Assembly: GCA_001599915.1 (NCBI GenBank)
Contig: BCIG01000012.1
Span: forward strand, 124,001 to 188,000
DNA length: 64,000 nt
Source of the DNA: Symbiotaphrina buchneri
Taxonomy: Eukaryota > Ascomycota > Symbiotaphrinales > Symbiotaphrinaceae
Direction: 5' to 3'
Positions 29,336 to 56,500 of this stretch are shown in pieces (position 1 is the stretch's first letter; each line of letters opens with the position of its first letter). The position numbers and the translations under genes are program-made. Under the pieces are notes generated by a model that ran no database searches, was not told the origin of the DNA, and saw only the letters and a list, made by a program, of their open reading frames with translations.

Positions 29336-31102
29336 GTCATTTCCAAAAGTTCAAAGGTTCCGAAGCGATCGAGAGGTCATTCAGCATATACAGCATCTTT
29401 CTATACCAAGTTCTAGCCACGCAAATGAGCCACGTCTCTGAAACCTTGAACGTCCAGCCGCATCCCACGGATTGTGGAAGCTCAGTTTGAGCCGAATATT
29501 CATCTCGTACGGCTCGTTGACGAGCTCGCCCTGTCTCTGATACCGGACAATGCAGGGCTTCCGACCAAGCTTCCGGCCAATGGACTTTACCGGCTGATCA
29601 TTGCCATACTTGCTGCCCACGAAGTCCTTCACGGTGATCGAGGAGAAAAACTTGCCATTTTGCAGCGATGTTGTCGGAAGGACGAAGTCCTCGTCCTTCC
29701 CGCCAAGCGGGTCTTGTCGAAGGTGTCCATCGGACATAGCCGATGAAGTTCCCATTGCAGAAGTGACACCCCGTCTCGGGGTTCGCGGTCTTGTAGTTGA
29801 AATCCCCAAGTCGATCGAGGAGAGTTGTCATGGAGTTGCCCTGCATGTGTTCTTCCAAGGCATACCTCGAGCCTGTACAGAGCACGCTGATAGTGGAAGA
29901 CCGTATCTTCTTTGCATTTGCAGCTTGCATAATCGAGAGTCGCGTCTATTGGCTTCCATAGACCGCGGAAGAGAATTGTGCGAAGGCGAAACTTCGCAGC
30001 ATTCATCTGCTCTGAAGAGGCAATGTCAGTCAGGACTCCGCAATGGTTGACAGTGTACTCACGAATGACGCGTTGTAGGAGATACAACGCTAGTACTGAG
30101 TGGGATTCTCTTTGAAGAGGCTCCCCTTCCGGTTGTACGCCATATAGCGTGTGACGCTCGCGAACCCATGGATATGATCAAAGGTGTAACATGGGAAGAG
30201 GAGCTGCTCCGGCTCTATGGTTGGAATCATTTGACGATCATACCATCTTGCAAACCAGTCGTTAAGTGGACTTGTGCCTAGCTCGTACTTCCAACCTATA
30301 TAAAAAGACTTTCTTTTCTGTTGTACGCCATGTATGGCGTAAAGAGCCAACATCTAGGGATATTTATCGATGTTCAAGGAAATAAACGAGGTTCTAGAAT
30401 ATATACGAAGTAAAGATACCCAAATATACACCGATATATATAAATATAGCTGAAGTCACCATTCTATAGCATGCAGCGCGGAAATTGAACAAAATGCTTG
30501 TAATTGCTGATGAGAACTATCGACCTTGTGGCGTGGAAAGCGCTGTTCTTATGCGCCGCGAGAGAAGTTTGCTACAATACCGAGTTGTTTGCTAACCCCT
30601 CATTTCTGGGAGAAATTCATCAAAAATGACTCATTCTCGTTGTTTGCGCAGGAGTGAGTCATGCGCCGCAGCAAAGCGTCCGTTAATGAAGAGGAAATCA
30701 TGCCTTCACCGCTGATGGAGGTCACAACTCCGATCCGCACGCTATGGCACTTGGTATTTCGTGGCTACCGTAGGAGGATGGCAATCTGGCGAGCGCTGGC
30801 TAGGTATGCTGGGACACTTCGAGCCATGATCTCTTTGCAACTCCCTGCCCATGACTAGGGAAAGGGCAATTCCATTCTCCGGCTAAATTGCTAGTAATAC
30901 AAATACAACGAGCTGAGCATAAGAGCCAGCTATCCTCATAATCCCAGGCCTGTCAATCCTGCTCGCCCTTCAACCCAGAGACTCATGTCCAGACCGCAAT
31001 GCCTGTCACCGAAACCAGACCTTCAGACATTGGGTTCCATTGTAGGGACCTATATCATGTTAACATTATATATGGATTGCCTAGGACCAATCATACCTCG
31101 TG
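29336..31102. other. Gene-poor region with helicase relic
   Basis: Apart from the helicase relic at 29450-29735, this 1.8 kb has no gene I can support. An AT-rich tract covers roughly 30295-30480. Two related short segments, each containing TTGTACGCCAT, lie about 170 bp apart (near 30130 and 30320), inside a minus-strand frame of 87 codons with no known features. Confidence 0.4.
29450..29735 (-). pseudogene. Relic of a helicase N-terminal exon
   Basis: The minus strand encodes about 95 residues closely matching residues 137-235 or so of the SF1 helicase at 45-48.6 kb. Shared blocks are LRQDPLGGKDEDFVLPT, VKDFVGSKYGNDQP (VNDFVGSKYGHDQP in the other) and GRKPCIVRY. Similarity ends near FHNPW, where an extra base shifts the frame, although nucleotide similarity runs on for about 12 bases. 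No helicase core follows, so this is a truncated copy in opposite orientation to its relative. It is separated from that relative by helicase 1 and the SEC39 group. The region upstream (29.74-30.09 kb) keeps an open frame but no match I can see. Confidence 0.75.
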
Positions 31103-34100: not shown

Positions 34101-34801
34101 TTGTCGGGGCTGACCTTCGGGAGCTCGATATGCACCTCCAAACAGTTTGTGTGGAACGTGGCTAGTTTGAAGATGGCCGTGCAACCTTTGAGGAGTTCCT
34201 GCTCTTCTTCGCCCTTGGCGATTATGCCTTGCACAAGCGAGTTTGCCAGTATCTTGCCCGCAGTAGCTTCCTTGCAAGTTTCGAGGAAGTTCTGGATTGG
34301 GTGGAAGAGTCCAGGTATCTGAAGGCGGACCCTGTGGAACTCGGCGTATGTGCGCGTCAGAGGAAATGTTGCTACATCGCTGGAGCCTGCCACTTTATTG
34401 CCCTCTGAATCATCTTGCGCGGCGACTAGAGCATCCGAAACCTTGAACGTCCAGTCCATTGATTTTTCTCCAACGATGACCGAGTTGGATTCTTGAAGCT
34501 TCCTGATGTCGTAGCAAACAGAGAAACGCTGTACTTGAAGCGGGCCCTGCCGTACCAGCTGTCGGATAACCACGTAGTGCGGTTCATAGAACTCAGAAGT
34601 CACGTTCAGCTTCTCTGCTAGCTTCATTTGTTCGAGCTTTCCCAGAGACAGCCAAGTCTCGGAGCCAGCCTTTTGGTAACTGAGCTCTGTCTTGAACCAG
34701 GCATTGCTGACTCTCTTTGAAGTCAAAGAGGCTATAGAGGCTGATTTGGCAGCCCTTGCATCGGTGCTCGGTCGAGCAGCGTTGCCAGCGTTGGACGACA
34801 T
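31103..34801 (-). CDS. SF1 (AAA_11/AAA_12-type) helicase, one in-frame stop
   Basis: This is a UPF1/SENATAXIN-like superfamily 1 helicase in one uninterrupted frame of 1233 codons, apart from a TAG at 32885-32887 (codon 639). Residues 1-400 have no domain I recognise. Walker A is GAAGSGKS (421-428) and Walker B is CDEAA (about 612). The TAG sits in motif III, where GDHxQ is expected, so it most simply replaces a glutamine codon. Beyond it, in the same frame, come QNYRCHQG, TIDAFQGDEA and TSRALEAFFIFGN (motifs IV-VI). The C-terminal 380 residues or so are Pro/Gln-rich and then coiled coil, with AAEEQRA repeated three times. The upstream cassette at 35197-35286 is shared with three other genes. 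It is either a recent null allele or a sequence error. Confidence 0.8.
31462..31545 (-). repeat. 24-nt coding tandem repeat (EEQRAAA)
   Basis: About three copies of a 24-nt unit encode the heptad-like AAAEEQRA in the C-terminal coiled coil of helicase 1. It is a likely site of length variation. Confidence 0.7.
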
Positions 34802-35688
34802 CTTCCTAGATGGGAGATGTACGTTTGACAGTTCTATGTATATCGAATTAGCCGCTTAGCCTACATCAGGACTATGAGCTCAAATACCTTTTGAAGAGAC
34901 TGTCAAGGGCAAGGGACGGTGGGAATCCTGAATAGGAATGCCGACCGAGAGATGCTGGAGATAGGCCGTTTTAAACGACCTGGAGATATGGAAGATCGGG
35001 ACTGCAGTAAGTACCGACCGACCAAAGAGGACGGGAACGAGAAGGAAAAAGAAATGAGGTGGAGCGGGGGTGGAGGTGGAGGAGGAGGAAGACGACGGAG
35101 ACGACGATCGAACCAAGCGTTACTCGACTTAAGAGGAAGAGCAACGCCGGAAAAGAAGACAGAGCTTCCTGGGAAGCGCACGCGAGAGCTTTGAACCACA
35201 ACCCCTAGGGAGCCGTATGCGAGCCAGATGATTATTCTTGCAAGTCGCCTCACAAGATAAACACTTGACTGAAGAGAGAAGAAGAGAAGAAGAGCAGAAC
35301 AAGAGGGAGAGGAGACAGTTTTGTAGGTTGGGAAACGCGCTAGTGCTCATGGCCTCAGATTCACTGCGGGAAGGGACAGTACCCACTCAGTTCAATACAA
35401 CCAACCCGAGGCCAGTGCAACTAGAAATGAGGTACCTGTTGGTATTCATACAAGTATTGCCAAAGAACGGTCCTAAGTGAATAGAGAGATCCGTGGTACG
35501 GATCTTGAAGGAATCAAGAGGCTTATAAGAGACATTCGAGTTGATACAATGCTCAAGTTCCAGATGCTCATATTTCCAGAGCAATAATGTATACCTAGAT
35601 ATCTAACATTCAACGCCTACCCATCGCTACCTTCACGTTGATGCACCGGTGTTGCTCCTGTAGGGGAACATATGTTAGGGTGGACAAC
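34802..35688 (-). promoter_or_regulatory. Leader and promoter of helicase 1
   Basis: About 400 bp of leader, pyrimidine-rich on the coding strand, lies between the ATG and the conserved start cassette. A possible 5' UTR intron donor (GTATTT) lies near 34885. The 400 bp beyond the cassette, up to the SEC39 stop, shows no gene. Confidence 0.5.
35197..35286 (-). promoter_or_regulatory. Shared start cassette, copy A
   Basis: On the minus strand this 90-bp block reads CT-rich tract, CAGTCAAGTG, then TCTGGCTCGCATACGG and CCCTAGGGG. It matches 52826-52915 (plus) at 86 of 90 positions, and all four differences are transitions. CT tract plus CAAG is a known fungal transcription-start context, so I infer the start of the helicase 1 mRNA here, about 470 nt before its ATG. 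Confidence 0.7.
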
Positions 35689-38537
35689 CTAATACAGGAC
35701 TGGAGGCTTACCCAGGACCCAACCGATACCAGACGCCAGCCCGCCTGTGACCATATTACTGACCATATCTCTTTTACGAACTCTCCCAGATTCGCTGCCA
35801 TCCGCGCTCACCATACTAGTACCGCTGACAGACCTCTGATCGCTACTGGTCGATTTCGTCCCAGAGACGACGCGGAGAGGAAATGCACTCTTCTGTATGG
35901 CGGCGGCCGCACCGCGAGCAACATCAAACAAGCCCATAGGAGCTTCCTCGGTGGCAGCTCTCCCCATTTCACGCCTACTAACATTGACAGAACCAATCGG
36001 CGCATCACTCAGGAATCCGCCAGGGACCCGACGATCACCTTTCTCATCCCATTTCTTCTCAGCTTCATTCTCTTCCGCCAGAAGAACGTTCATCTTCTCT
36101 TCACACTGACGCCATACACCCAGGATCTCCGGCAATGCAGTGGCTGGCGCAAGGAGAAGAGCCTGTGACAACAAATCCATTCGTTGATCGAGGCGACGCA
36201 ACTCCAGGTTGATGCTACCATGCCGTGGCGGAGGTTTATTGGATCTATACCGCCCAGCATTAAACGCAGCACGCCATAAGATATCATCTTTCGGTTTGTC
36301 TTGAGTCGCTTCAGATGCAGAAGGCGGCGACAGTCGATTGACAACATATGAATATGCAGTTTCAAAATCATCCTCTTTGAGAGCAGCATCAATTGCCATA
36401 CCAATTATTCGCTTCTCCGCTTGTTGGGCAAGATAATCTTCACCCATGGACGATGTGTCGACGATACCCGGTTTTGTCTTGGGGAGGCCGGCAGCGACCA
36501 GGTTCCGACCTATACCAATAAGGTCGTCGAGTTTTGTATAGCTACCTGGATTCTGTTCCAAGACCTTCTGCAAAAGTAAAATGGGATCCTGATGGATGCG
36601 GATGTTGACCGGTTGGAAGGGTACACCACGATGAAGGGTCAAAGCATAGAAAGATATCGAGTGAGTGGCAGCTATGAGAGCTTCAGTTTGTCGAAACGAA
36701 GTCGTACTTCCGAAATACGGTCGGAAGGCAGCAAGGCTTCATCCGGCTTGTCAGCATGGACTCGTATGCCAACCTGGAATAACTTACATATCGGAGGCTT
36801 TCTTGACCCCACCACGTGTCCGGTTACCATTGCTGGCATTATCATATGCGTTCAATGCAGCATCCAAGACAACTTTTTGAATATGCTCGGTCTGGAGAGG
36901 TTGTTCGGTTGCCGAAGTCTTGAGGTATAATTCTATAACAAGATGATAGTCTGCGTTCGGGGTTATCAGCTCATCCGCTCCTCTTGCATCGAGGGTCACC
37001 TACCACTTCCACTGAGGAGAGCTTTGAGAACCTCAGTCTCGACCACGCCCCGTGGCACTTTACCCAAAATCCCAGGGCCACTTTCGGATTCTGTGCCTTG
37101 CTTCCCCCAACCCCACAGCCAAAGCAATTCTTTTCTGATACGAATCCAGTCTTTGTCGTCCCGTTTCTTTCCTGTACCGAGACTGTGTGTCAACTTTTGC
37201 ATTTCGGCCAGTTGACTTTCAGCATTGCCAGTGATGTACATGTCCGTCAAGATCTTTAAGGAAGTCTTTCGCCCCAGCTTGGTAAAGATATAGGCCGAAG
37301 AGAGTAGTGCGTATAGTAGGGAGATTGATTCCTCTGTTGGTATTGTCAACACGTTTTGTGGATTTAACAACGCATTATTGAGGAGAAAAGCGGTTGAAAG
37401 ATCGTCCCGTTTCGAAAATGCCGTGCCGATGGCAGGGAGCGAGCTTTCATCTCTTGGCAGATCTGGAGGCGCAATAAGACCTAAAATATGTGCAGTCCGG
37501 ACCAGAACCCGATGAGCACCTTCAAGACTGTCCAATGAACCGTCTGAACCGGTGTATACCGCAGCTATAGCAGCTTGCCCATATTGCTGCTGGTATGCTC
37601 TCTCTGCTTCCGAATCTTCATTTTCAAACTCGCCCTCATAACCGCCCAGATCAACATCTATCGGACCATCCCATTGTTCAATAGCCTTGACAGCCAAGCC
37701 AAAGTCTTGTTGTGCAGTTGCCACCAACCAATCAAAAACTAGTGGCCAGTCACGACTCGGTGAGATTTCCCCTTGCAGTGCAATTGAATCTTCCCGAGCG
37801 ATAGATGGCACAGCTGGCTCCTCACTGAGCCTTCTTCTTTTGACCCTTGTGGCTCCGTACATCCATGGTCCTACCAATCTTTTCAGATCTCGTCCAACAG
37901 GGTCGGTTTCGGAAACAGGATGCTCATCCCTAACTTTCGATAGCAATATCTCGACCCCGGCCGCACCTTCTAGTTTTTCGAACGCTTGCAATGAATGAAC
38001 TGTCCCTTCGTTGGGGTAGTATTCATAACTCAGACGCAAAAGTGGCAAGACTGCTGAGATGAACCATGTACGAAGGTATTCGGAGTAATTGATGAAGGGC
38101 GAAAGAAGTTCGGGTAGAAGGGTCAATATACCGGTTTCGGAATCAATTCGATGTGCACGGTGGATGAGAAATTGTGTCAGAGGATCCAAATCTGTATGCC
38201 CTGCGTTTAATGGTGCGGCTAGAGGGAGGAGATGCAACTTTCGAACGGCTATTCGGGCTGCGCTCTCGTCCAGATCCCGCACGGCGGAGATGTCTAAAGG
38301 TACCGTTGCTTCACTACCCAGCTGATTCGAATTCAATGCTACCAGAAGATGGGTATAGATGGAAGGTTCAAGGGATTCGGGCAGAAAGGTCAGAAGAATC
38401 CTCAGGAGTGGTTCCTTAGACAGCTCTTGGGGTCGCAAGGCGATGAGTGTCTGCAATGACGGGACATCATTGTCTGTGGCGTACTGAACAGCCAGAAGAA
38501 TAACCTTGGCCTTTGATAGCTCCGCAACAGCGGCCAT
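35689..38537 (-). CDS. SEC39: Sec39-domain ER tethering protein (Dsl1 complex)
   Basis: Sec39 (related to animal NBAS) is part of the Dsl1 complex, which tethers COPI vesicles at the ER. Exons are complement(35689..36736, 36788..36950, 37004..38537), giving 914 aa. Introns are 51 and 53 nt and phases close. Family features are the N-terminal helical run starting ELSKAKVILLAVQYA, then LLRILLTFLPES, and tail segments YHLVIELYLKTS and LDDLIGIGRNLVAAG. The protein is all-helical with no membrane segment. An in-frame ATG at 38639 would add 34 residues; I chose 38537 because family similarity begins there. The C-terminal 120 residues are Ser/Arg-rich and less conserved. No frame defects, unlike its accessory neighbours. 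Confidence 0.88.
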
Positions 38538-38909
38538 TGGTATTGAGGCCGTTGGTTGCACTCGGTACGGTAGATTTTGAAGATGGTGATGATGCCCGAC
38601 GTTTCCCTTGATGTCAGAAGCTTGGACCACCCGGCACATGGCTCCACACGTAGCTTGCTCGGCTTCTTCCGAACCTAAAGACGGTGAAGCATTGCAGAAC
38701 GTGCTCCTACGAAATACTCCTTATCTTACGGCACTTGGTTTCTACCCGCTACCGTAGCCCTTTCGGACTGGGCCTTTGTCGGTGTCTTCCTCTATTGCTT
38801 CGGAGAGCTGTCGATGGTTTTATGAAGTATGCCGACAGAAGTCGTCATATCTGTACATTTCTTCTATCTGCGATATGAACCATTTTCATCTATCCCCCGA
38901 GCTGCATAG
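38538..38909 (-). other. Short intergenic, SDR to SEC39
   Basis: About 370 bp between two minus-strand genes. It must hold the SDR 3' UTR and the SEC39 promoter; nothing else is recognised. Confidence 0.4.
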
Positions 38910-39709
<800 letters not shown>

Positions 39710-41416
39710 ATTTCGATATGAATGAGCAGCATCTGCCAAAGAATCAATTGCCTCAGATTGAGGACATCATGAGAAAGCGATCAGATGCTCAGCGAAAGGC
39801 TACACGGCCTCATTTCAGTCATTGACTCAGCCTGGCTCCACTACGTAGGGGCGGGGTATGGTTTTCCGGATATTATGCCGTAGTGTTCGGATATACTTAT
39901 CCGTCTGGTCCCGAAGCAACTTCCCTCCGCGTTCATAGGTGCGCATATAAGTGCGATCCATGATCTCCAGCCAAAAGAAATCAGGCTAGAATATAGCACA
40001 CGATCTGATGATCTGATATCTCCGAATTTCTGATATGATTCACGAAGCTTGGGGCACGGTCAGACACAGTACTCCGCAAAGTGGGGAATAGGATGAGTCA
40101 GCGCACTGACCTTAGGCCAACGTCAGGGGTTACCCCTTTCTTCTTCCGTAGACATTACAAAGCTTTTTGGCAGCCCTGTCTGCTTGTAATGAGAAACCCT
40201 TGCGAAGACGTTATCGTGCTTGAACTTTCATGTAGTCACTTGTGACGACATTCTTCCGGAATCCTTGGTACCGGAAACTGAAGAGGCTGTCGTACAGCAA
40301 CCACATGGCTACTCCGTGGCTTACCCTTCAGGCAGTGGCTAGAAATGTCCTTCTTCTCTTGAATCTCGGAGATCTTCTATTCATCTGGACTCCTGCCGTC
40401 GGTTCTCTGTATACTCTGGGGATGATGTCTTCCATCGTGATCCCATTCTTGAAGCATTCATTTTCTGTGATAGTTTTCAACCACTGTGTCTGTTTGCTGA
40501 AGTTCCTACTGTCTTTCCTGCATTTCTGCGTCCTTATGAGACAATCAAATGCCTGATGGTGTCGAGTGTGCTGTTCCTTTCTACCGTCAACACCTGGGCG
40601 TATGCATGCCAGTCAGATATTGCACGGTTGCAAACGTTGCTGGCTCCGGTGGCCATTGACCGAGTATAGCACACGGTCCTTGCAGAGTTCTCTGCCAGAC
40701 TCCAGGTCACGTGGTCTCTGGAACAAAAGTTAACATATAGGGGTCAATAGAGAGGTCCCCAATAACAAACCGACCGAATGGTCACGACTTCTGCGGGCGA
40801 CTATTAGTTGACCGGCGCTAACCCGTTATACAGTCTCGTCGCTCAAACACCTCAGCATGTTGCTTTGCTTTGCTTTGCTTCTCCTTGCTGCCCGGCGTCG
40901 TCTAGCTAATATGAGTGCTCAGGTTGTCTTGGTTGCTTCGCTCTGGTTGCTTTCTTGGTTAATTCCCGCCTTTGCTCCTCCTACTGTAAGTTCTCCTCCC
41001 AATTCCTTATCCGGTCGCCCCAGAAGTCTTTTTTTTTCTTTTTTTCTTTTGCCCTCATGTTACTCTTTTGGTGCCAGGCGGCGATGACATCCAGAGGAGT
41101 ATAATGCCCGTATGGAGGAGTATGGTGGCCATTGTCGTCATCTTGAAAAATTGGACCAAGCTGGTTTCGAACCCTTGACCTCTGCACAAAGAGGTGGTCG
41201 CTGATTGGCCTGGATGGTGTCGTTTGGTGTCTTCTGCTGTGAATTGACGTTGATGGTTTTGCTGAGATTGGGTTCGGCGGATGCCGACCCTTCGGTGTTG
41301 ACTTCCGCGACCTCTTGTACTTTTCCCTGCCAGCCAACGTTACGTCCCCTTCTCTTTTAAACTTCAACCAAATCTTCTTGACCTCATGCCAGCTGGTAAC
41401 AGTTATTGCCATCAAG
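39710..41416. other. Long divergent intergenic region
   Basis: This 1.7-kb gap lies between divergent genes. It contains a TTTGC pentamer run at about 40860-40880 and a T-rich tract at 41029-41050. The frames at 40242-40556, 40857-41087 and 40981-41526 (minus) show no family features. No functional RNA is supported. Confidence 0.4.
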
Positions 41417-43333
41417 ATGCCGACATATCGTTCAATAACCATCTCTCTTGTCTCACAGTTCGATATCTTGACAATCCCAGAGTACCAACCTCCTAAGACA
41501 ACCGATCCTGACAAGCCAAGGCTCATTGACCAGTCAAACTCTCTCGTGTCTGTCTACATCCCCACGTATTCATCCTCACAGTTCTGGATCTCGTACAGCA
41601 TCTCCCAACCTGTCGCTCCTGGCCAACAGTTCTATTTCAAGTTATTCTTGAATGGCGTACACGTCGTCAGCTGGGGCTGTACTCAGGAGGATGGATACAA
41701 GGGTAAGACGATGTTTGGCCTATATGACAAAGGAACCAACTGAGCCGGTGAGAGAATCGTTGAAAGACGTATGCTGTGTTTTCCGGAAGAGGGCGAAGGT
41801 TCAATGAAGAAAGAATGGAGTGGTATGATGGAAGTTCGTGATCATGCATGTTTCCATAGTTCGCCGGCGCCGTTGACGACTTGCAGATCAAAGTGTATCG
41901 CAGCAAGGGAAGTAGGCGGATCCCCAGAGACCTGGAGAGATATACAGGCAAAGAAATGGTCCTTCCAGAAGGAGGAATCAGGTTAGTGACATGACTCAAA
42001 CAACAAGGATAACTGCTTACCAGGCATAGCTTGGTAAAAGGAGGCATGCTCAGGACCCATCACTCGCAACGGTACTATCAATACATGTTGGTTGATCCAA
42101 TCGGTCGACCATTCGCCAGGTTTCGTTACTACTATCGTACCTCTGGTATTTCCGCCTCGCCATACGTGTCGCCCCCTGCTGACCTGAACCGCAGCGCAGC
42201 TAGAGAGTCTCGGCATCGGTCTAAAGCCATCACCTGAACCTGCGCCTACTCGTGCTCTTCCTCCCGAACCGTTCTCTGCCTTTGACTCTGATACCTCAGA
42301 CAGTGACTCTGAGGACGAAGAAGCCGGCCCCGAATCACATAATCCATTCCAAAATCATCCATACATCGCTCCACGTTCATTATCGCATACTGTGCAACGA
42401 ACGACTCCGTCTCCTACAACTCTAGAGGATAGGGCTATTTCAACACGTCATTCTCACCGACGGTCAGCTTCCGACACTTCCCTCAGACCTCTCCGCTCAC
42501 CATTCGGGTGGCTGGCACCAAGTGCACCCAAATCAGATAGGGGTCTTACGGCGCTCAGTCCATCGAAAAGCTCTCCATCACGAGATACGACACCACAAGG
42601 CTCACCCTCAAAGCCAAAGAAATTACGGAAACTAAATCTCGCAATGTCATCACCTACACGCAATACCGCATCTCCGACTATGCGTCGCTCTCCTTCTATG
42701 CTAAACATCCACCAAGAGGCCACTGGGGCCAACGAAAGCCCAGTTGCAGATCAAAGCACTACCGGGGGTCAAGACCCTGCCGAGGAGCAGAACCTAGCTA
42801 CCGACCAGAAAAGGGATCATACTAGACCCAGCACTCCCGAAATGCCTGCCGAAGTGGCTACGTCCCCTTCTGCTGCACGTGAAACGAGGAGGACCTTCAT
42901 CCATAGTCTTGTCGATCTTGCGACCCGCCGCCGTGCTAGTACGTCTGCTGCTAAAAATCCTCCCCCTCTTCCGCTAGTTTTCGGTCTCGATGACCCCGAA
43001 CCTCCTCGTGGCCGCCTCCGGGAACGTGTGGGAAGTGGACATGCTCGTGGTATTGGTAGTCTTGGCGGCAAGGGCGTTTCTACTAACAGCGAAGGTGCTG
43101 GGACTGGGGACGAAGGCGGCGCTTCTCAGAAGGAGGGTGGGACTGGTTACCTGGGCAAGACCTGGTCCGAATTGAGCGAAGAAGAGAAGAAGGCACGCCT
43201 TCTCGCTCTGCAAGAGATGATCAATGATCATGGGGACGAACATCAAGGCGAGGTGTCCAATGGCAAGGATGCCGGCGATGAGGACGATGATGGCAATGAA
43301 GCGGGAGGGTCAGGTGTCGGCATTGCCTTGTGA
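41417..43333 (+). CDS. Conserved Pezizomycotina protein of unknown function, one in-frame TGA
   Basis: Exons are 41417..41833, 41887..41981, 42030..42145 and 42195..43333, 589 codons with introns of 48-53 nt and all phases closed. Residues 1-215 form a compact domain I recall from many filamentous ascomycetes: MPTYRSITISLVSQFD, VSVYIPTYSSSQFWISYSI, GKTMFGLYDKG, MEIKVYRSKGSRRIP, RYYQYMLVDPIGRPFARF and YYYRTSAQLESLG. A disordered Ser/Pro-rich tail ends with a TWSELSEEEKKARL helix and an acidic C-terminus. Codon 109 (41741-41743) is TGA in the first exon, while similarity continues after it. From memory of the family a Trp is usual there, so TGG to TGA is likely. A 42-nt GT-AG segment (41703-41744) could splice it out but would remove MFGLYD. 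Confidence 0.72.
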
Positions 43334-44424
43334 ATGGCCGCAATGGATAGGTCTCAGATTAAACGCGTTCTGAATGTCGTCGGTGGCATCATCAATTTGT
43401 CTTTACTGGCACAACTGTTACTATCCCTCCTTCGCATCCATAGTATTGATCTCTGGTCGAGTAAGATGTAAGGTTTTAGGTGCTAGGCTGGGAGCTACAC
43501 GCTTTATCTGTTGCGATACGGTTGCGCTCCCAGTCTCTCTCTTCCAGGTACCGTAGATGAGTGCAGCCCGTCTCTATCACATCCATAGGAGATACCTAAG
43601 GTAAGTGCAGGTGATAATCGTGCCAAGCCTCGACGTCTCACAGCACATTATTGAAGGCCAAGTCTCTGACATCACGTGATATGGCCCGTCTGGCTACGAT
43701 ACTTGGCAGCTCCTTTGAGGTCCCGACTACACTTGGGCACATCCCACGGCCGTGATGCAATAGGCCGAACGCTTAGGGTTCATGGCCAACGGTATGGGAC
43801 TTCAAGCTGCATATGGGGCTTGTGATAGCTTGTTGATTGCACACAATTCAGTCCAAGAACTCAGGGTTCCCAAGTATCATACAAGCATTGTTACTATGGA
43901 ATTGTTTGGGATCATCTTTTCTTCGCAGTTGACAGGACATCCCAACCACGGGCGTCTCTTCGAGACCATCGCGCGTTGCGGTAGCGGGTTTCATCATCTG
44001 GATACACCCTCCAGACACCACGTTGACTCTACAATTCTTGATAGATCAGCTTGTAGGCAGTGTCTTTGCTTGCTTTCTCAGCTTATACGGTATTTGTTAC
44101 TAGCCTCTAGTTGTTGTCTTGCCTACATCGAAACGAGTTCAATGGCTCTGAAAATGATCATTCTGTATTACTATTTCCAAAGGTCTCAATGTTCGATTTC
44201 ACTTGAATTTCTACTGCCTAACCATGCCGGGGGCTGCTCTAGTGATTTCGCGAGAGTAACGACCGTGAATCCCTGAGGAGGTCAACAATCTAGGCCCGGC
44301 CATCACCGCTTTGGTATCGATGAATAGAAGGTTGCTTTGGCACAGGGCCTTTGTGGCCTCGATCGCGTGTGGAAGACGTGATGTGAATGGGCGCGACGGG
44401 TAAGTGACCGGGAAGTGTCCCAAG

Positions 44425-44540
44425 TATAAAACTCGCTGCCCCCCCACGAATCTTTCCTCTTCTCTCTTCTCTCCTTAGTCAAGTGTTTGTTAAGATTTTA
44501 TCTGAAGCATTCGTCTGGCTCCGTGGTCTCCTAGAGGCTG
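44425..44540 (+). promoter_or_regulatory. TATA box and shared start cassette, copy D
   Basis: TATAAA at 44425-44430 is followed by a long CT-rich tract, then TTAGTCAAGTG (CAAG at 44480-44483) and, 30 bases on, TCGTCTGGCTC and CTCCTAGAGG. Order and spacing match copies A and B, though this copy is more diverged. It is the only copy with an obvious TATA box. The predicted mRNA start is about 500 nt before the helicase 2 ATG. Confidence 0.62.
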
Positions 44541-44740
44541 CACCTGTCCAAAATCTCCGCTCGCGCTACACCTCGTAGACGTCTCGTTCCGTCTTCGGGG
44601 GGTGAACTCTAGAACGTCTCTCCTCTTCGCCGCCCTCCTGACGCGTCTCGTCCCTCGTCTCCCTTCTCGCGTCTCCCTTCTCCCTCCGACCCTCACGGGT
44701 CTCCACCTCTGGCTCGATACCACCACGGTATCGTTCCAGA

Positions 44741-44892
44741 TCTCACCTCCGGTCGTCTCTCTCACCAGAACGGCCCTCTTTACCAACTTCACTGCCTTCC
44801 GAGACAGTGGGTGGTATCTCACCTCCGGTNGTCTCTCTCACCAGAACGACCGTCTTTAACCAACATCACTGCCTTTCAAGACAGGACCATCT
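44741..44892 (+). repeat. Two-copy 76-bp tandem duplication in the helicase 2 leader
   Basis: The unit starts TCTCACCTCCGGT and recurs exactly 76 bp later; the copies differ at roughly ten positions. The only ambiguous base in the window, an N at 44830, lies inside the second copy, so copy number and sequence here may be poorly resolved. Confidence 0.8.
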
Positions 44893-44981
44893 GGTAAGTT
44901 CTTTCGTCTGTACCTTCCAGTTATACCTCTTATCCAGGATTCATTGGCTAATATCTGGTGCTGGTCCAGCTGTCAGTCAAA

Positions 44982-47900
44982 ATGGTCGACACTGGAAAAG
45001 GCAAAGAGCGCGCCCAAGACGACATCGAGTCTGGGCAACCCATGGTCCATGACAGCACCGTCCCTCGGCCGTTTACATTTGATGACGTCGCCTATGACCT
45101 TGCCATCCTTGATTTGGCAAAGGACACGGCGTTACCAGAGGATGACACGGACCTCATTGACTACAGCGATGCGGAAGAGGTCGGTTTTCACTCCCGCTCC
45201 AAGTGGAACTTCAGGACTAAACATCTCACAGGGTCCAAATGTCGAAGAGCCGCCCCTCCCTCCGCAGTCCATCCGCAAAGCTGGCGACCCTTCAGCCAGC
45301 GCTGCCACTGTGAGTAATGCCGTCTTTTTGGTCCTGAGCGTTCATGTTAATAGATGTTAGGCTCCTGGTCAAGACAAGACGCTTCCGAGTGCCGCGGGCC
45401 CCACCCTCTCTGCGCATAAGATGGATGTGGACGAGACGACGCAGCAAGCCACCACCGCGTCCGACAAGGGTGGCCCTGCGGATGAGTCTATGGACCTTCG
45501 ACAAGACCCACTTGGCGGAAAGGATGAAGACTTCGTCCTTCCAACAAGTTACAAAGCCTCGCTGAACGATAGCACGTTCCACTCCGGGATGACCGTGAAC
45601 GACTTCGTGGGCAGCAAGTATGGCCATGACCAGCCCACCAAGTTTCTCGGCCAAAAGCTCGGTCGGAAACCGTGCATTGTCCGATATGAGAGTCAGGGCA
45701 AACTCGTCAACGTGCCTCACGAGATGCATTACCGGCTACAATTGAACTTCCACAATCCGTGGGTGCGGCTGGAATCAGGATTGACGGGTGAGAGTACCGC
45801 ACTCGTCATTCCCTTGACCTCGAAATTCGTGGACATGAAGGGCATTCAGATCTACCATCCGTGGCTCCGGCTCGATAAACCTCAGAGGCAGAGATATGAG
45901 ACTTTGAGGCTGAAGACACGCTACCATCGGGCAATCATCGAGCTGCCATTGAGTGGTGAACTTCATCCGGTCATGACTGGGGCTCCCCTCTCAACATTTC
46001 CAGAGAACGTGCGAAGGGTACATACCGCCCTCCAAGGAGCCGATAAGATCGTGATCTATGTCGTAGTCGCGAATTATGTCCTCCATCACCTGGACTGGCT
46101 CATGAAATTGGTCCGTCGCCCTCAGCCTGACCAGTTCGAATGGTACTATCAACAGATGGACAACGGCAAAGGCTGGGACACCTGGCACACCTGGTCCAGC
46201 GTTCCTGAGAAGCCCTTGTGGATGATCGAGAAGAGTACAATAGGGAAAGCCAAGCTGGCCATCACCAACGAGGATCTCAGGCTTGTTTCGGTCCCTGCTC
46301 AAACCTCCTTTGCGCACCGACTTCAAATTGAAGCAATCTTCGGAGTGGCTCTGCGTCGTGAACGTTATGTGCAAGCCAACGATATGGAGCAGCTTCTCAA
46401 GGACGTTCTCAGCTTCACAGTCAGATGGGAGCAAAGTCAAGTTCACCCGGTGATTTGGTACGCCCACGTCACGATGATAACTGAGCCCGGTGTGAAAGCT
46501 CCTGCCGTGCCCCCAAGGACGATGGTGTCCATCGGAATCACAGCCGAAACTGGAGACGACGGCAACATGAGGTTCGACGGCGTCGTGGCTCCATCCACCA
46601 GTGACGCAGGTCAGTCCTTCGATGTTGTGCTTCGACCCGAGGCCAACCTGGACGCACTCAAGGACTATGTGAGGGCCTTTCCTTTCGGTTGCGCGCAGGA
46701 CATCAGCCTCAATACATCAACGGCCAGCATTGACAGGCAGATACAAGGCCTGCATGCTCTTTCGAGCTACGGTGGCCCCCGGAACCTGGCGTACCTGAAC
46801 GTGGCATCCCTTCTTCTTGGAAACGGCCATGGTCACCTGAAGAGGCCGGCTGATGAGCCGCGGGTTGACATGGCTATGCTATGTGGTGCTGCTGTTACTG
46901 ATGAGCAGAGGAAGCTCGTGGATTTTGTACTGAAGGTGGCCTCATTGGATGAGAGTCAAATGGAAGCCTTCAAGGGAAGCTTTGAGGCAGAGAAAGGCCT
47001 GCTCCTGATCCGAGGACCGGGTGGTACGGGAAAATCTCGCGTTGCCAGTGTCATCATCGTCATCTGCGCCGTGCTCAATGTCAAGGTCCTCGTCAGTGCA
47101 CCTTCCAACGGGGCCTGCAACAACCTCCTCCGCGCCATTGATACGTTCCTGCGGCACCTACTCCGGGTTGCGGAAGACAAACAGGTGTTTCAAGATATCG
47201 CCGATCGGACGATCCGCTTCACCTCACCTGCCATGACGAAGACAGAGATCAAGGACAGCATCCCGGACCACATCCAGAAGCTCCTCGCCATTTCTGGTGT
47301 AGAAGAGCTCGACAGCAACCTGGACGTCTCCCTTCGCGGACTTGGTCAATATACCATCGGTTCGCATGTCATGAAGCGGATCCATGGAGGATCAGGAGCC
47401 TACCAGGAGATGAAAGAACTCATCCAAGCCATCCATAGCGGCAATGAGCTTACCGGGAAGGAATGGAGGAAGTTCAACAAGGACCTCGAATCGATCGGCG
47501 GTGACTGCGTTTCCGAGGCCCTCATCTGCATATGCACCTTGAACACTTGCTCCAGTGAGACTGTGCGCATCAATTTCGAGGCGAAATTTCTTCTCATCGA
47601 CGAGGCCGGACAAGCGATGGAGGCGGACCCTATCCTGGCGCTTCTGGGCTTCTCCCTCCGTACCTGCGTCATGATGGGAGATCCCTCACAGCTCCCTCTA
47701 ACGGTCATCTCCAAAATGAAGAACGAGTTTGCCGATCAGCTTGGGCTACCCTTGTTCACCCGGCTCTGTGAATCGGGGTGTTACTATCCTAAGGTCACCC
47801 TGAAGTTCAATTATCGCCAGGCTCCTGCACTTGCCAAGTTTCCCAGCGCCGAGTTCTACTCGGGTGAACTGCTGTCAACAGCGGGTGCGACTGCCCTTAC

Positions 47901-48626
47901 GCCTGCGGACCTGGTCTTTGAGGAATGGGCTCAGTCTGCCAGCACGTTCGGTGGGGCCCTGTTCGCACATGCAACGAAAGCTCGCATTGGCTTGATGGTC
48001 GATGGAGATTCCACCATGAACGCGTCTTTCTCGAAGCACAACCTCATCGAGGGCAACTTCGTCGTTGAATTGGCAAAGTCCCTCCTGTCCTTTGTGCCCA
48101 AGGGTGATGGTGTAAAACCACTGGAAGCGACGCAGATTGTGGTCATTACACCTTATGCCGCCCAGAAGAACTACATCATCACTAGTCTTCACCGGAGGCC
48201 GAATAGTCATGGCGACCTGGGCAGGATCCACGTTTCGACCATCGATACGTACCAGGGCCAAGAAAATGACATTGTCATCTGGAGCATGGTCATTGCCAGC
48301 AGGAACCAGGGGAAGGTGGTCGGTTTCGCCGGTGACCCAGCACGCGTCTGGTAGCCCTCGGGAGAGCCAAACGGCGGTTGCTGGTCGTGGGGAACTTTGG
48401 CAGGCTGGTGCCTTTCGCGAAGAATTTCGAAAGCAAGGGTAAACACTTCGGTAACCTTCTCCTCGACATGCAGAGGCAACAAGACATCGTCACCATCGCC
48501 AAATCCTATTACCCAACTAGGGCATGGGATCTCCAATTTGAACGTGGGCCTGAAACGGGCGATAAACGGACACAGTCCGCCACGGCGGATGGTGAAGGCT
48601 CTGGGTCAAAGCGGCCAAGGAGGTGA
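44982..48626 (+). CDS. SF1 (AAA_11/AAA_12-type) helicase, one frameshift
   Basis: This is a second UPF1-like SF1 helicase. Exons are 44982..45179, 45232..45309 and 45361..48626, about 1180 codons; introns are 52 and 51 nt. The N-terminal 630 residues begin with an acidic region (DDTDLIDYSDAEE). They include LRQDPLGGKDEDFVLPT, the block also found in the relic at 29.5 kb. Walker A is GPGGTGKS (644-651), Walker B IDEAGQAME (about 838), motif III GDPSQLP, motif IV FNYRQAP and motif V STIDTYQGQE. The frame then stops at 48354. Motif VI continues one frame over as VALGRAKRRLLVVGN, running to a stop at 48626. A one-base deletion near 48350 explains this exactly. The C-terminus is basic (GSKRPRR). 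No frame defect lies elsewhere. Confidence 0.8.
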
Positions 48627-49802
48627 TTTTGCACGGCTCCCTGACGCTTTTCTTGAAGGTACGTCCATCACCATTGTGCAAAGTCGATCTCGAACTAATA
48701 AGACCAAGACCAATAGGATCTTCGTGTTGTCCGTGGTTTAGCCCGGTATGTTTTCGTGTGGTTTTTGCTTGGGTTTTCATGTAAATGGAACTCCGGCTTC
48801 TGTGTGCTTGAAGTAAGCAATAGATGTTACTTTTACTAGCCTCATCCACTAACGAAGTGACCAGATGGGAGTTAGGAGTGGACAGATTTGGCTGTACAAT
48901 AATACGAATGCTTTACAATAGGAAAAATTGATGAGATGCATCTCACTTTTTATTCATTTGCGTGACCATGGTTCCCGGCGGGAAACTACGCCATCTCTCC
49001 ATCCTTGATCTGTGACCTGGAATCGTACTCCATGAGACATCATATTACATGGTGCCCGCAGTGATGGCGACCTGGAGAAGAATCCGCCTCTGTCATGATT
49101 GAGTCAGGAGCTTCGCAGTGTCCTCTTCCATTTCCTTGGCTTAAGTCCCTTGTGTCCCTCTGTGTATGTATACAATGGTATCAAATGTGGGTGATAGCTG
49201 AAGGTTTATAGGCCATCTGTGTATGTATGCAATGGTATCAAAGGTGGGTGATAGCTGAAGGTTTATAGGCCAAGGTAGCACGGCACAGATGCGGAGAAGA
49301 AGGGTGCAGATGATACATGGGAACGAGTACAGCGAGAGCTTTTATTGAGCATCGACTGCTCTGGAAAGTAGAAACGCATGGCTCCTTGCTAACAATGGTA
49401 TTATGTGTAGCTAAGGAATGGATCTCAGCAGTGACTCATTCAGGCTCATTCACCAGATGGTGCTGGGATGGCCAAAGGGTTTGTAGAAACATCAAACAGC
49501 AAACTCAGAAGGCTTTATAAGCGACCATACCTCCCTAATCCTGCCATTGACGATCCATATTAATGCCATAAAGAAATCCCTACTCTTCAAACTCCCCTAT
49601 CAGCTATCCATCTCAGACCTTTTCCATAGCGCTGACGGATGATTATATACAGTCTATAAGGTCATTGTCAACTATACTTCCCGTCAAGTTATATATGAGG
49701 AACATACATCCACGAAGACGGGCTTCAGGAAGAGCTATGAAACTCTGTCAGTCAGAGGCTATCACGATAACAAGATATTGGCTCACCCGGGCTTATAATA
49801 AC
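48627..49802. other. Convergent intergenic region
   Basis: About 1.2 kb lies between the converging helicase 2 and GIY-YIG-like genes. It holds a 57-bp tandem duplication (listed separately) and otherwise unremarkable sequence. Short plus frames at 49317-49520 and 49665-49883 are not supported. Confidence 0.4.
49160..49273 (+). repeat. Two-copy 57-bp tandem duplication
   Basis: The unit starts CTGTGTATGTATACAATGG and ends GGTTTATAGGCCA. It is repeated directly with about two differences. It lies in non-coding DNA between convergent genes. Confidence 0.85.
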
Positions 49803-51513
49803 TCAGCGCTCGTCTTCCTCCTGCAGAGACAAAATTCTTTCAACAACTTCCATCTCTGGACTCATCCGCTCCAACGTGGCTAAACTCCTCTCAGCTTGCT
49901 CATCAACGGCTGCATCAGCACGTTCGGCATCTTCCAGCTCCTTTTCCAGATCCGCAATCCTTCTTTCATTTTCTGCAATGCTTGATATCTGCTTCCAGCG
50001 AGCCGTCTCCTTTTGCATGTTATCCCGGAAAGGAGTATTCAAGCCTCTATAACTTTCAAAGTGATAACGATCAGTCTGCTGTATGCAAAGGGCTGTCTGA
50101 TTGCTTAAACCGGCTGAGACATTCGCGAAACCACCGCCTCCGTTGACGTAGGCCTGGCAAAGGCGGCTGAACAATATATCGGCGATGATTGCCTCCATAG
50201 GCTGGACGATCAAGGATATAACAAAAGCGCGCATTTTGTATTTCTTTTCTCTGAAAAAGTGGCTGCACATTGACTCGGTGAGACACATGACGTAGTTTGA
50301 TCCTACATGGTCTTCATGGGTTTTCAGTCTTGTCGCAGCATCGCGAGCATAGCCGACGTAAACCAATGGCGCTTCCAGCGGCTCATCCTTTTTGGCCGGG
50401 TCCGAGGAACAGATATTATCGAGCCGGTTTGTTAATTCGTTACAGAACTTTGCCAACCGGGACTTCCTTGTCGAGGAATTGCCTTCTTTACCCTGGTTCT
50501 TCTTGGTCCGGAGATAATGACGGTGGCCCCGACGACTGTCATCTAGAGTCACTGTACCGGTCTTAATGAGATTGTCAATCTTGTAGGCAAGCTCGTGGTC
50601 CTGAGGTCCATTTGGTTCGCCGTATCGTCGAAGCCCACGATTGACCTCGTACAGTTGCCGTGGAGTGGGGGATCGACCTTGATTATTAACCAGTAGACGC
50701 ATGTATATCACCGGCTGTCTCAACTTGTTCTTCCTCAGTTCCGTCAATGCATTTCTGACGGAGACATTCTCAAGGCGAGAAAGAGCCAAATTCCCATTCA
50801 AGATGGCCTGCAGCAGTGAACCCCGCATTGTGCAGATGATAGCTACGCAAATGTTCGATGAGGGCGGTCTCAGGTAGCTTGACAAGAGTCTGAAACTGTA
50901 GTCTTTCGTCGTCAATCACAGCAGTCACCAGTTCATATACACCCCTTCGTAATCCATTGGCATACTTTGTTCTGGCAGCGTCATTTATATTAAGCTGACC
51001 CTCGAAGGTTATGATGTCTTGGCGAGCCTCCTCTAGGGCGGGATCCCTTTGAGTTGCTTCTTCTACCGCCTGAAGGAAATCGTCTTCGTCGTCGAACGCA
51101 GGTGTTATACCGTCGGCCATGGCATATTGTTCCTCGTCGTCGAAAAGCGATTCAACATCTTCGCCATCTTCCAAGGTGTTTTGGAGTAATTGACGCAGAC
51201 CAAGGCTATACTCCTCGGCGGTCTTTACTTGACATCGAAGGGCTTCCTGCTCCTCTATACGTTTCTGGACTCCCTCATCTGAGTCGTCTGTCGGTTCAGG
51301 AGACGACCTTGCCGAATGGCGGCCCTCGTTTTGTTGCTCAGCACCCGCTGCCGTGGCGTCATGGTGTGGGATAGTCTGTTCCTGGTCGTCGGCGATTCTG
51401 TCGTTGGGGTCTTCATTTGCTCTGGTTTCCTCCCCGATGCGGGCCCAAGGGACACGATTGGACGACCGTCTTGTATTGCTCTTCAACTGTCGACCTCGGT
51501 GCCGATCAGGCAT
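49803..51513 (-). CDS. GIY-YIG-like domain protein, one frameshift
   Basis: Two overlapping minus-strand frames form one protein of about 569 aa. The first runs from 51513 to a stop at 50770, the second to a stop at 49803. Removing one base near 50810 joins ...HNAGFTAA to ILNGNLALSRLENV, so a single-base insertion is the simplest explanation; no intron fits. The N-terminal 130 residues are acidic and disordered. A helical middle includes NLALSRLENVSVRNAL. About residue 390 onward YVGYARDAATRLKTHE resembles the GIY-YIG nuclease start (tyrosine, glycine, then RLxxH). It is followed by SNYVMCLTESM, QPMEAIIADILFSRLCQAYV and NGGGGFANVSAG. A coiled coil (residues about 490-560) ends it. Nuclease activity is unproven, and the fold call is weak. 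The upstream cassette C is shared with three neighbours. Confidence 0.7.
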
Positions 51514-51785
51514 TTTGGCAGTTATGGCTGCTGATCAAGACAGTGATACAAACGAAGAGAAGATGACTGGAATATGGGGTTGAAAGTGTGCTTCGCAAGA
51601 AGGAACGGGACAGGGGGAATTGAGGGGAGGTGTTGAAGAAGAGGGCGGAAAAGGGGGACTGGAGAGGGGCGAACTGGAGACAGTGACTGGAGACGGCGGC
51701 GAGGACACGCTATGATCTCGCAAAGAGAACCCTTTTGAGAGACGGCTGAAAGCAGACTTTCACGATGTTTGATAATAGGCAACCC

Positions 51786-51869
51786 AGCTTTAGGCCAGAC
51801 CGCATGCGAGCCAAGAGAGGTCGATGAAGTTTCCCTCGTCGAAGACCCTTGACTGAGGAGAGAAGAAGG
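51786..51869 (-). promoter_or_regulatory. Shared start cassette, copy C
   Basis: On the minus strand: CTTCTTCTCTCCTCAGTCAAG, a 34-nt spacer, then TTGGCTCGCATGCGG. The first part is identical to copy B through TCAAG and the second keeps TGGCTCGCAT; the spacer has diverged. The predicted mRNA start is about 335 nt before the GIY-YIG-like ATG. Confidence 0.58.
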
Positions 51870-52825
51870 AAACAGTCCAACCAAAGGAACGCGAGAATCC
51901 AGATGTACCAACCCCCAGCGAAGCGACCACCCCTCTCACCCTGACAACACCACCATCCCGAATAATGCTGGATTTACCTACCAAAAGAGATACCTCCACG
52001 AGGTATTGTTTGTCTGGTAAGAGAAGGCAAAATGCAGCATCCTTTTTCTTACCTCGCAGCTCGATCGAAATCCGTCAACTTCGCCAGCCCGGAGTACCGT
52101 CCGCTCGGTAGCAGATAACTCCCCTCCCGTCCAGGCATCAATTGAAGAAGATACAATGATATGGTAGGAGATAATCTAATTAAACACTCACTATATTCAA
52201 TGTTGCTAATAAAAAGGGTGGGACAGGAAGAGATTTCCATGAGCAAAGTTCAAGCAGCATCGTCGGACAGGAAATACCACATCTCAGCTCTCTTCTTTGC
52301 AAAGGTTCTTTTTTTCCCTTCATATGATCGATACTTACGGCATGATCGCACCCTAGTACCACTGAGCTCGCCTTCTTTCACTTCGTCAAAGCAATAGTTC
52401 ATGTCTTCGCCCATGAAATACATACAATATCTCGGGAGACATGTCAATCATTGTATCCCAGCAATATCCAAGACCAACAAGCCAGCGTGTAAGGATATGG
52501 GTGAATGTTCGTTCTCGATATGGGGACATATACGCCAGATCAGAAGCAGTTGATATTGTAGGACTGTCTTTGTATCATTCTCCTAGTGCTCCAGACATCA
52601 GCGAACGAGCGCCGTCCAGGATATGTCCTAACAGATATATCATCCACCATTGTTTTCAAGGAGGAGAGTAGTAGAAATTAACATTGAAGGAGAGCAATAT
52701 ACCTGAACATGACGCCCTATCCAATACGCCCCTATCGTACCTGACTGGGGTTTGATGGACCCGCGGGGAAGGAGCGCTAAGCGATGAGTTCATATCCACC
52801 TTCCTGCTCATCTCTGGCACGCCTT

Positions 52826-52915
52826 CTCTTCTTCTCTCCTCAGTCAAGTGTTTATCTTGTGGGGCGACTCGCAAGAATAATCGTCTGGCTCGCATACGGC
52901 TCCCTAGGGGTTGTG
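52826..52915 (+). promoter_or_regulatory. Shared start cassette, copy B
   Basis: This is the best-preserved form: CT-rich tract, CTCAGTCAAGTG, then TCGTCTGGCTCGCATACGG and the palindrome CCCTAGGG. It differs from copy A at 4 of 90 positions; in each case A has T or A where B has C or G. It lies about 710 nt before the coiled-coil ATG. Confidence 0.7.
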
Positions 52916-53257: not shown

Positions 53258-53435
53258 CCATCATTTTCCTCGGTCAGCATCGATTTTCGATCGTTCTGGC
53301 CATTACTATATACTTTTTCTGTCTTCCGGGATCTCGCAGTGCCGAATCCCCATCACCTTCCTCGGTCAGCATCGATTTCCATCGTTCTGGCCATTACTAT
53401 ATACTCTTTTTGTTTCCGGGATCTCGCAGTTCCGG
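53258..53435 (+). repeat. Two-copy 92-bp tandem duplication in the coiled-coil gene leader
   Basis: The units begin CCATCA..TTCCTCGGTCAG at 53258 and 53350 and end near TCTCGCAGT. They differ by several substitutions and short indels. Like helicase 2, this gene therefore has a duplicated leader segment, although the two units are unrelated in sequence. Confidence 0.8.
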
Positions 53436-53547
53436 AGACGAAGCCTTCACTTGCTTGACTTGTCGAGTCATTCGTGAAGGTATGTGATTGCTGTCCAATT
53501 GGAATATATACTTGTGTAAGAAACCGTACTGATTGCCTTAGTTCAAG

Positions 53548-56500
53548 ATGCCACGACCAGGTGGAGGTTCTGGGAGCCGACGGCCCCATCAACAGAATCT
53601 AGAAGAATATCTCGCTCCTGGGGAGGGCCGAAAACGGGGTCTCCTGAACCAAGCCATGGACGAGCTAGAGAACCACTCAGTCACCCGCGAGATGACGGTT
53701 GCAGCCGGACATGCACTCCACGAGGATCGGCGTGGCTTAGGCGTCCGGGAACGACGATATGAGCCTGACGAGCTGAAGCAAAGGGGCGTTGATACCCTTC
53801 AGAAGGTACGAGAGTTGGAGGCCAAGCTTGCTCAGAAGAGGAAAGATACAGCGACCAAGTTCCGAGCGGTTGCCCTGACCAGCGAAGCCGACGATAAGTT
53901 ACGTCAACTTCGTCAGGATTTCCTTGGCTATGATAATTCATGTCAGGACAAACTCACGACGGACTTGCAGAAAGACAAAGAGAGGTTTCGAAAGGAGACC
54001 GAGGATCTCAGGCGAACCATAGACACAAAGGACGCCGAGCATGTGGCTTCAAAGGTCGAAATGGCGAAAATGCAGCAGGAGATCAAAAGTTTGAACCAGA
54101 TGCTCGAGACCGCCAAAGCCGATAAAGAGAGACTCATGTCACAGCTCCAGAACTTGGACTTGGCCGGTCAGGCCCGGAAGATCACTGATCTCAAGCAGAC
54201 TCTTCAAAGCGAAAGGGAGACTGGAAAGTCGGCTCGAGCAAGCATGGACGAGGAGTTTCAGAAGATGCAGAAGGAAAATGAGAGCAATCTCCAGGAGATC
54301 TCGAGGCTGCAAGATTCTTTGAACTCCGTGCGTCAAGAGCTCGAGCAGGCGGTAAACGCTCGAGATGCCGCCGAACGTGAAAAGCTCCAGACCCAGAAAG
54401 AGCGCGATCTTGCTCGGACTGAGCTTATTGCCGCCAAGGACCTCGAGGCAACTTTACACCAGAAGGTCACCGATGCCGAACAAGAGCGAGACACGGTCGA
54501 TAGAGATCTCCAGGCTGCCTGTACTGCTCTCCGCGGAGAGAAGGAAAGTATGGAGTGGCAGCTTAAGTGGTACCTGGATCAGCTCAATGATCATGAAACA
54601 GCACTGGATGTAGAGCTGGCAACCTCAAAGAGGGACCTGGAAGATAAGGAACGTCAACTTCAGCAGACCTCTGAACTTCTGGAGAGGGCAAAGGCAGATG
54701 CAGAGGACACTCTGGAGAAGGCAAAGGAAGATGCAGAGGACGCTCTGGAGAGGGCAATGACAGATGCAGAGGACACCCTGGAGAGGGCAATGGCAGATGC
54801 AGAGGACACCCTGGAGAGGGCAATGGCAGATGCAGAGCACACTCTGGAGAGGACAAAGGCATATGCACAGGGAAATCTGAAGAGGCAAAACGCACTGGCA
54901 GAGTCACAAATCGCCCGCTTGAAAACCCAGCTTGAAGATGCTGCCAGGGACTTTGAGCATCGCTTTTCCCGCCGGAGCAAAAGTCTTCAACGGGCAGAAT
55001 GTCAGAACAAAAGGTTGAAGAGCATGCTTCATTCCTCCACTCAAACGGTTACAAGTTTGAGGACTCGGTCGGCGAAATGGAGCCGGACGGTTAAGGACAA
55101 CCGCGAAAAATTCCAACGTGCCGCGGCATTGGTGTCAACCCTCAGACCGCAATTGGAGACCTTGACCTCGGAGCTCCGTGAAAATCAATGTACGCTCAGG
55201 CAAACATTGGTGGTTCTGGACAGCACTAAAGCCGAGGTGGTCAGACTGGAAGGTCGAGTGGATTTCTGGCGGTCCTCACATGGAGAGCTCTTGGACGACA
55301 TCCGAAGGCTTGAAGCTGATAAAAGTCAATCAACTCAGGTTGTGGAGCAGCTGAGACTTGAGCTGAGGGACGCTGACCAAAGGACGTTTGATCTGCAAGA
55401 ATCTCTGAACGATTCTGAGCAACATTTCCAGGGCGCCATGGAATTGATGGCCAACGAACAAGATGTCAACCGCACAGTGACCGCCCAACTTCAAGCGAGC
55501 CTGCAAGCCGAGGCGGCCGGTCGCATCATCACCTTGGCCATTCACGTCTTCTCGACCTTCTCGGCTAATGCCAGGATAAACCAGGACCAGCAGAGGATCT
55601 GGATCCTGCTCGTGGTGGTTGCTCGCCTTCAAGCAGCGCTCAAAGTTCAGAGAAGACGAGGCATCATAGCTCTAATCCGGACGGAAGCCAAAGAACGCCA
55701 ACACCGCGAGCGTCGTAAGGTGTTGCGTAAATGGGCTACCGAGCTCCTTGAAGACCTCGAGAGTCAGAGGAAGGGTCGCGCTACAGACGCCGAAGACCAT
55801 CAGACGGCACTTGGTCAATTTCAAGCTCTGATGGAGGAGAAGGAACAGGAGATCCAAACTCTGCAGTCAAGGATCACTGAGCTGAAAACCGACGGCGACA
55901 TGCTGCAGACGACAAAGACCCGATTGGACTCCGAGATCCAAACTCTGCAGTCAAGGATCACCGAGCTGGAAACTGACGGCCAAGCCCTGCAGACGACAAA
56001 GACCCGATTGGACTCCGAGATCCAAACTCTGGAGACCAGGATCACCGAGCTGCAAAATGACGGCGAAGCCTTGCAGACGACAAAGGTCCAATTGGACTCC
56101 AAGATCCAAACTCTGCAGTCAACGATCACTGGACTCGAAACTGACGGCGAATCTCTGCAGTCGACAAAGGCCCAACTGGAGTCCAAGATAGAAGATCTGG
56201 AAGTAAGACTCAGTTGGAAAGACAATTTCAATCTCTGCAGTTGACCAAGGCCGAGTTGGATTGCAAGATACAAGATCTGGAGACAAGCAAGACTCAGTTG
56301 GAAACAACAGTCCAATCTCTGCAGTTGATAGAGGTCCATCTGGATTCCCAGATAGAAGATCTGGAGACAGAAGGCCAGTCCCTGCAGGCGACAAAGACAG
56401 AACTGGATTCAGAGGTCCAACGTCTGAAGACAAGGAACACTCAGCTGGAAACAAGTGTCCAAACTCTGTCGTCGATAAAGACCCGACAGGGCTCAAAGAT

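Follow-up and report, generated by a model that had tools for sequence, protein, structure and literature searches.

Two kinds of arrangement close to the one described here are already known, namely upstream modules common to fungal accessory genes and a cap-proximal repressor of a single gene. In Fusarium oxysporum, the mimps that precede SIX effector genes belong to the transposable elements; at the two loci where this was examined, expression did not depend on them (PMC3599309, available in part). In the yeast HAC1 mRNA, pairing close to the cap represses initiation, and eIF4A relieves this repression (PMC8881652, available in part). Core promoters of Aspergillus nidulans have, in the accessible portion of their description, CA at 49% of tight starts, pyrimidine enrichment from -50, and an A/T-rich TATA region at -45 to -30 (PMC4046813). 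Here, a short cassette present in four copies was analysed in a 64,000-nucleotide window (bases 124001-188000 of the 755,137-base contig BCIG01000012.1, called C12) of the genome of Symbiotaphrina buchneri (23.4 Mb, 82 contigs); C4, C7, C8 and C9 are other contigs of the same genome, and positions are those of the window unless a contig is named. The copies join a half of promoter-like composition to a half whose consensus pairs, with compensatory changes, in the sense strand only. We infer a promoter combined with a structured leader that would co-regulate the cluster; for this reading, which takes in the transcription start, folding inside cells, an effect on translation and joint regulation, the chances seem about even. 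No description of such a cassette set was found in the open-access literature.

Four cassettes at one locus

Cassette A (35197-35289, minus strand) lies upstream of helicase 1, with a predicted +1 at 35266 (CA), and cassette C (44455-44540, plus strand) upstream of helicase 2, with a predicted +1 at 44481. Cassette D (51786-51869, minus strand) precedes a GIY-YIG-like gene and cassette B (52823-52915, plus strand) a coiled-coil gene, with predicted starts at 51850 and 52846, respectively. All four copies point the same way as the next gene and together span 17.7 kb. An earlier note on this DNA had reported four such cassettes, each oriented toward one gene, and they were present as reported; its coordinates held for C and D, whereas A and B were extended to 93 bases each, and weak homology among the copies continued for about 25 bases beyond the 3' end first given. 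The near identity of A and B was likewise borne out, with a count of 89 out of 93 bases instead of 86 out of 90, and the CT-rich tract, TCAAG and TGGCTC were recovered in every copy, even in D.

Numbered from the A of CA as index 0, identity between A and B was 11/27 at -50 to -24, then 22/23, 28/30 and 39/40 in successive segments up to index 69, and 12/25 followed by 13/40 past that point, so that near identity collapsed at both edges. Hairpin 2 of the predicted fold of A (see below) stops at index 68, one base short of the 3' edge of near identity. The near-identical block thus contains the initiator tract and both hairpins, with hardly anything besides. So sharp a block would follow from gene conversion, from selection on the fold, or from the two together.

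Upstream regions were compared in 55 pairs (11 regions, each pair against 60 dinucleotide shuffles). All six pairs among the four cassette genes exceeded a z-score of 4 (4.1 to 49.0), as did one of the remaining 49 (helicase 1 against a C7 helicase, z 5.4, due to a TCC-rich run); the other 48 did not. With the 20-base core TTCTCTCYTYAGTCAAGKGT and up to two mismatches, seven matches were obtained in the 23.4 Mb, four of them exact (the four cassettes, each heading a gene) and three with two mismatches, and the reversed-pattern control gave none. The gapped pattern GTCAAGKGT-N20..45-YTGGCTC retrieved the four cassettes and two other sites genome-wide, and its control pattern also two; a 98-base query from B matched only B and A in the whole genome. 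At the sensitivity of these pattern and query searches there was no fifth cassette elsewhere in the genome. A covariance model built from the four cassettes and run over 154 kb (the window and nine further loci) returned its own training set and one chance-level match (E 3.3). It found no cassette at the conserved genes in between (Sec39, SDR and the open reading frame at 42392-43333), as the earlier note had stated, and neither the model nor sequence comparison found one at the paralogous genes on C8 or beside the helicase 1 relative on C7. The exact TTCTCTCYTYAGTCAAGKGT core was absent from a set of viral and prokaryotic contigs from which records near the host genome were possibly excluded.

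In the upstream half, a tract of 29 bases starting at -30 is 79-93% pyrimidine and is followed by CA in all four copies. This half resembles an Aspergillus-type core promoter with a predicted start at the CA, located 337-702 bases ahead of the predicted ATG, a distance that for helicase 2 was taken to one base beyond its ATG at 44982. The promoter-like composition fits common control of the four genes. To this extent the earlier designation of a transcription-start cassette stood; it had missed the probable RNA fold of the downstream half.

Predicted RNA fold and rival explanations

Judged from folding predictions, the other half of the cassette, downstream of the start, probably forms a structure as RNA. 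Consensus folding of the four sense sequences by RNAalifold, without a guide, gave two hairpins with 13 pairs (-8.44 kcal/mol), five of them changed on both sides, and the antisense strand of the four copies gave no pairs. In this unguided consensus 86.5% of cells paired, compared with 38.5-47.1% when the structure was slid, a level reached by 2 of 500 shuffles; for a fuller structure of 26 pairs drawn from A the value was 86.6% (38.5-47.4% slid), and no shuffle out of 500 scored as high. The predicted two-hairpin leader of A occupies 35198-35267 (minus strand), with hairpin 1 at the 5' end and hairpin 2 after the GCTC box, and that of B 52845-52914 (plus strand). In the predicted two-hairpin leader of C (44480-44543, plus strand), 11 of 12 changed pairs were retained, including all five double changes (P 0.0003). 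In B all three changed pairs were retained, too few to tell (P 0.34), and the three differences between A and B inside the transcribed block all preserve pairing. The leader of D (51782-51851, minus strand) has a strong hairpin 1 of its own, an end-to-end hairpin at the same place with 6/6 end bases paired. Dinucleotide shuffles as stable as hairpin 1 made up 1.4%, 0.4%, 18% and 1.8% for A, B, C and D, respectively. The window has 83 CAAGKG segments; five of them folded to -12 kcal/mol or below while forming two or more end pairs, and A, B and D were three of these.

Several results weigh against a promoter joined to a structured leader. TATA-like boxes (TAYAAA) lie at about -59 in A (TACAAAA, 35319-35325, minus strand) and about -56 in C (TATAAAA, 44425-44431, plus strand, with flanks that align with A), beyond the A. 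nidulans range of -45 to -30, and no such box was seen before B or D. Copy D keeps the common fold only in part, retaining 10 of 19 changed pairs and 2 of 10 double changes (15/24 paired, P 0.095), and few independent copies count, because B is nearly the same as A. Further pair types were no commoner than in shuffles, 398 of 500 being as high for the structure drawn from A and 200 of 500 for the unguided one. Hairpin 2 did not beat its shuffles in any of the four copies (equally stable shuffles: A 16%, B 29%, C 24%, D 70%), and the single leaders near the start were not unusually stable (z -0.80, -1.35, 0.46 and -1.19). Segment limits for folding were, moreover, picked after the folds had been inspected.

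The main rival is a common promoter acting as DNA only, in which an initiator tract would be combined with downstream protein-binding boxes (TCAAG and TGGCTC) and the hairpins would be incidental. The best-conserved parts are indeed short blocks (the tract and these two boxes), kept even in D, where the fold is partial; yet pairing in the sense strand only, with compensatory changes that include G-U, is unexpected for DNA sites, and we consider this account possible but unlikely. The second rival, that local duplication and gene conversion copied the 5' end of one gene to its neighbours with no common function, draws on the confinement of all copies to 17.7 kb, on the sharp-edged 93-base block common to A and B, and on the nearby helicase 2 fragment (79% identical), which shows that the locus duplicates. 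Despite their wide divergence, C and D still have the tract, TCAAG and TGGCTC in matching positions ahead of a gene, and C retains the pairing as well; this explanation appears decidedly improbable.

A 3' splice site, with a pyrimidine tract, (C/T)AG and a common second leader exon beginning at TCAAG, would account for the resemblance of CTCTCYTYAG to an acceptor. The branch motif CTRAY, however, is absent from the 71 bases upstream in 4/4 copies, a weak test because the motif is present in only one of three introns placed by eye, and no common upstream exon was seen; the probability is very low. That a short module recurs beside accessory genes would be expected of relics of a dispersed mobile element that had carried them, the earlier suggestion of cargo of one dispersed element. 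This was not supported: the genome searches turned up no additional copy at the sensitivity used, and the ends of the copies had no repeats in common, terminal inverted ones included (A had none, B one 10-base direct repeat, and C and D a single weak inverted pair apiece, each different), which leaves mobile relics extremely improbable. Equally hard to credit is a family of stand-alone small non-coding RNA genes lying ahead of genes by chance: its compact two-hairpin fold would suit it, but all four copies are aligned with the direction of the next gene, the 64-kb window has no Rfam match at the gathering threshold, and at relaxed settings B, C and D yielded sub-threshold matches only. Overall, the interpretation offered in the earlier note was partly supported.

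Genes behind the cassettes

Helicase 1 (31103-34801, minus strand) consists of two open frames separated by one in-frame TAG (32885-32887). In helicase 2 (44982-48354, plus strand; 3' end provisional), the ATG and a pair of short introns upstream of 45361 were placed by eye. Both are UPF1-like, with AAA_11 and AAA_12 above the gathering score (superfamily 1). They were 23-25% identical over about 440-470 residues, making them distant relatives; the four proteins, earlier called unrelated, are therefore of three kinds, and the word was wrong for the two helicases. The single TAG of helicase 1 falls between its AAA_11 and AAA_12 domains, though cassette A is nearly the same as B, and because it separates the two helicase domains this gene may be inactive.

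The GIY-YIG-like gene (49803-51513, minus strand) comprises two overlapping open frames. The likeness that gave it its name exists but is weak, and the domain is unproven, with a Pfam match (E 0.082, 13.7 bits) under the cutoff of 22.6. The AlphaFold model of the protein (mean predicted local distance difference test score 39.9) was too poor for a structure search, and no viral relatives were found in a set from which records near the host genome were possibly excluded. The coiled-coil gene (53548-58628, plus strand) also has two overlapping open frames, a leader intron at 53480-53541 (likewise placed by eye) and a cysteine-bearing C terminus, a search with which for further relatives produced one weak match (E 0.004), interrupted by stops. 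In its coding region, tandem repeats recur about every 84 bases (55849-56480), and leader tandem repeats occur at 44740-44884 (about 69 bases, helicase 2) and 53258-53434 (about 87 bases, coiled-coil gene).

A relative of the GIY-like gene on C8 (30-33% identity) adjoins another UPF1-like helicase (C8:738899-745815), in a relative orientation different from that in the window; the two arrangements mean that a helicase and a GIY-like gene adjoin at two loci. A tree of aligned fragments grouped helicase 2 with helicase 1 at a support of 0.67, which was not relied on, and did not support the C8 helicase as the closest relative of helicase 2. A foreign origin judged by codon bias was also rejected: GC content at third codon positions was 0.51-0.66 in the cassette genes and 0.47-0.66 in the background (18 frames of at least 300 codons, 14 other loci).

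Leader structure z-scores were -4.11 for the C8 GIY-like gene, -2.56 for the coiled-coil gene, -2.28 for helicase 2 and -1.60 for helicase 1, compared with +0.88 for the GIY-like gene of the window, +0.33 and +1.05 for the C7 and C8 helicases, and -0.90 to +1.16 for six controls. Structured leaders were thus not a general trait of the gene family, three of its leaders having positive values. The C8 GIY-like leader (locus L030, 400-1060, minus strand) contains 90-base tandem repeats.

Elsewhere in the window, a fragment similar to the coding sequence for the helicase 2 N terminus (29453-29724, minus strand; 79% identical DNA) lies without a cassette, and a repeat family occupies 59590-62770 in both orientations, with more copies on C4 and C9. 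The window also encodes a Mot1-like protein with matches of 2500 bits to PDB chains, 7zb5_E among them; these chains are labelled 'helicase-like protein' and are presumably those of Chaetomium thermophilum, which points to a Pezizomycotina ascomycete as host.

A possible common leader and its known counterparts

In the proposed mechanism, the cassette would be a core promoter joined to the first ~70 nucleotides of the mRNA leader, in which the pyrimidine tract places initiation at the CA within TCAAG. The 5' end of the nascent RNA would then form hairpin 1, in which CAAGKG pairs with the six bases ahead of the GCTC box and an inner stem lies between, and hairpin 2, of about eight pairs, would form downstream of that box. 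Such a cap-adjacent fold might keep translation in check until it is unwound by a helicase or a binding protein, and the four genes would thereby have a common start signal and common control at the mRNA level. Control of translation initiation by the leader is proposed here by analogy with HAC1.

A more speculative extension, to which we attach a low probability, is a self-contained RNA regulon, in which a locus-specific leader homogenised by gene conversion would tag the accessory mRNAs, one or both helicases of the set would read or open it, and the cluster would regulate itself. Paralogous loci should then have leaders of their own, which the C8 GIY-like leader (z -4.1) fits and the C7 and C8 helicase leaders (0.33 and 1.05) do not. 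If the promoter-and-leader reading is true, different genes would be joined into one transcription and translation unit without an operon. The cassette would be a compact, tangible RNA element and a way into this cluster of accessory helicases and their companions, genes with no known role.

As in HAC1, pairing near the cap is predicted for the cassette leader; the HAC1 pairing is between leader and intron and concerns a single gene, whereas the predicted cassette fold is local and common to four genes (PMC8881652, in its available part). With A. nidulans core promoters the cassettes have in common a pyrimidine-rich stretch ahead of the start, CA at -1/+1 and a pyrimidine-rich leader, and differ from them in that the TATA-like boxes are further upstream and in two copies only; a common structured leader is a feature of the cassettes that does not appear in the accessible portion of that promoter description (PMC4046813). 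The arrangement is the same as that of the mimps and SIX genes in so far as one upstream module is common to accessory genes of one region. Unlike mimps, as portrayed in the available part of that study, the cassette shows no sign of mobility, covers the predicted start and enters the predicted transcript (PMC3599309).

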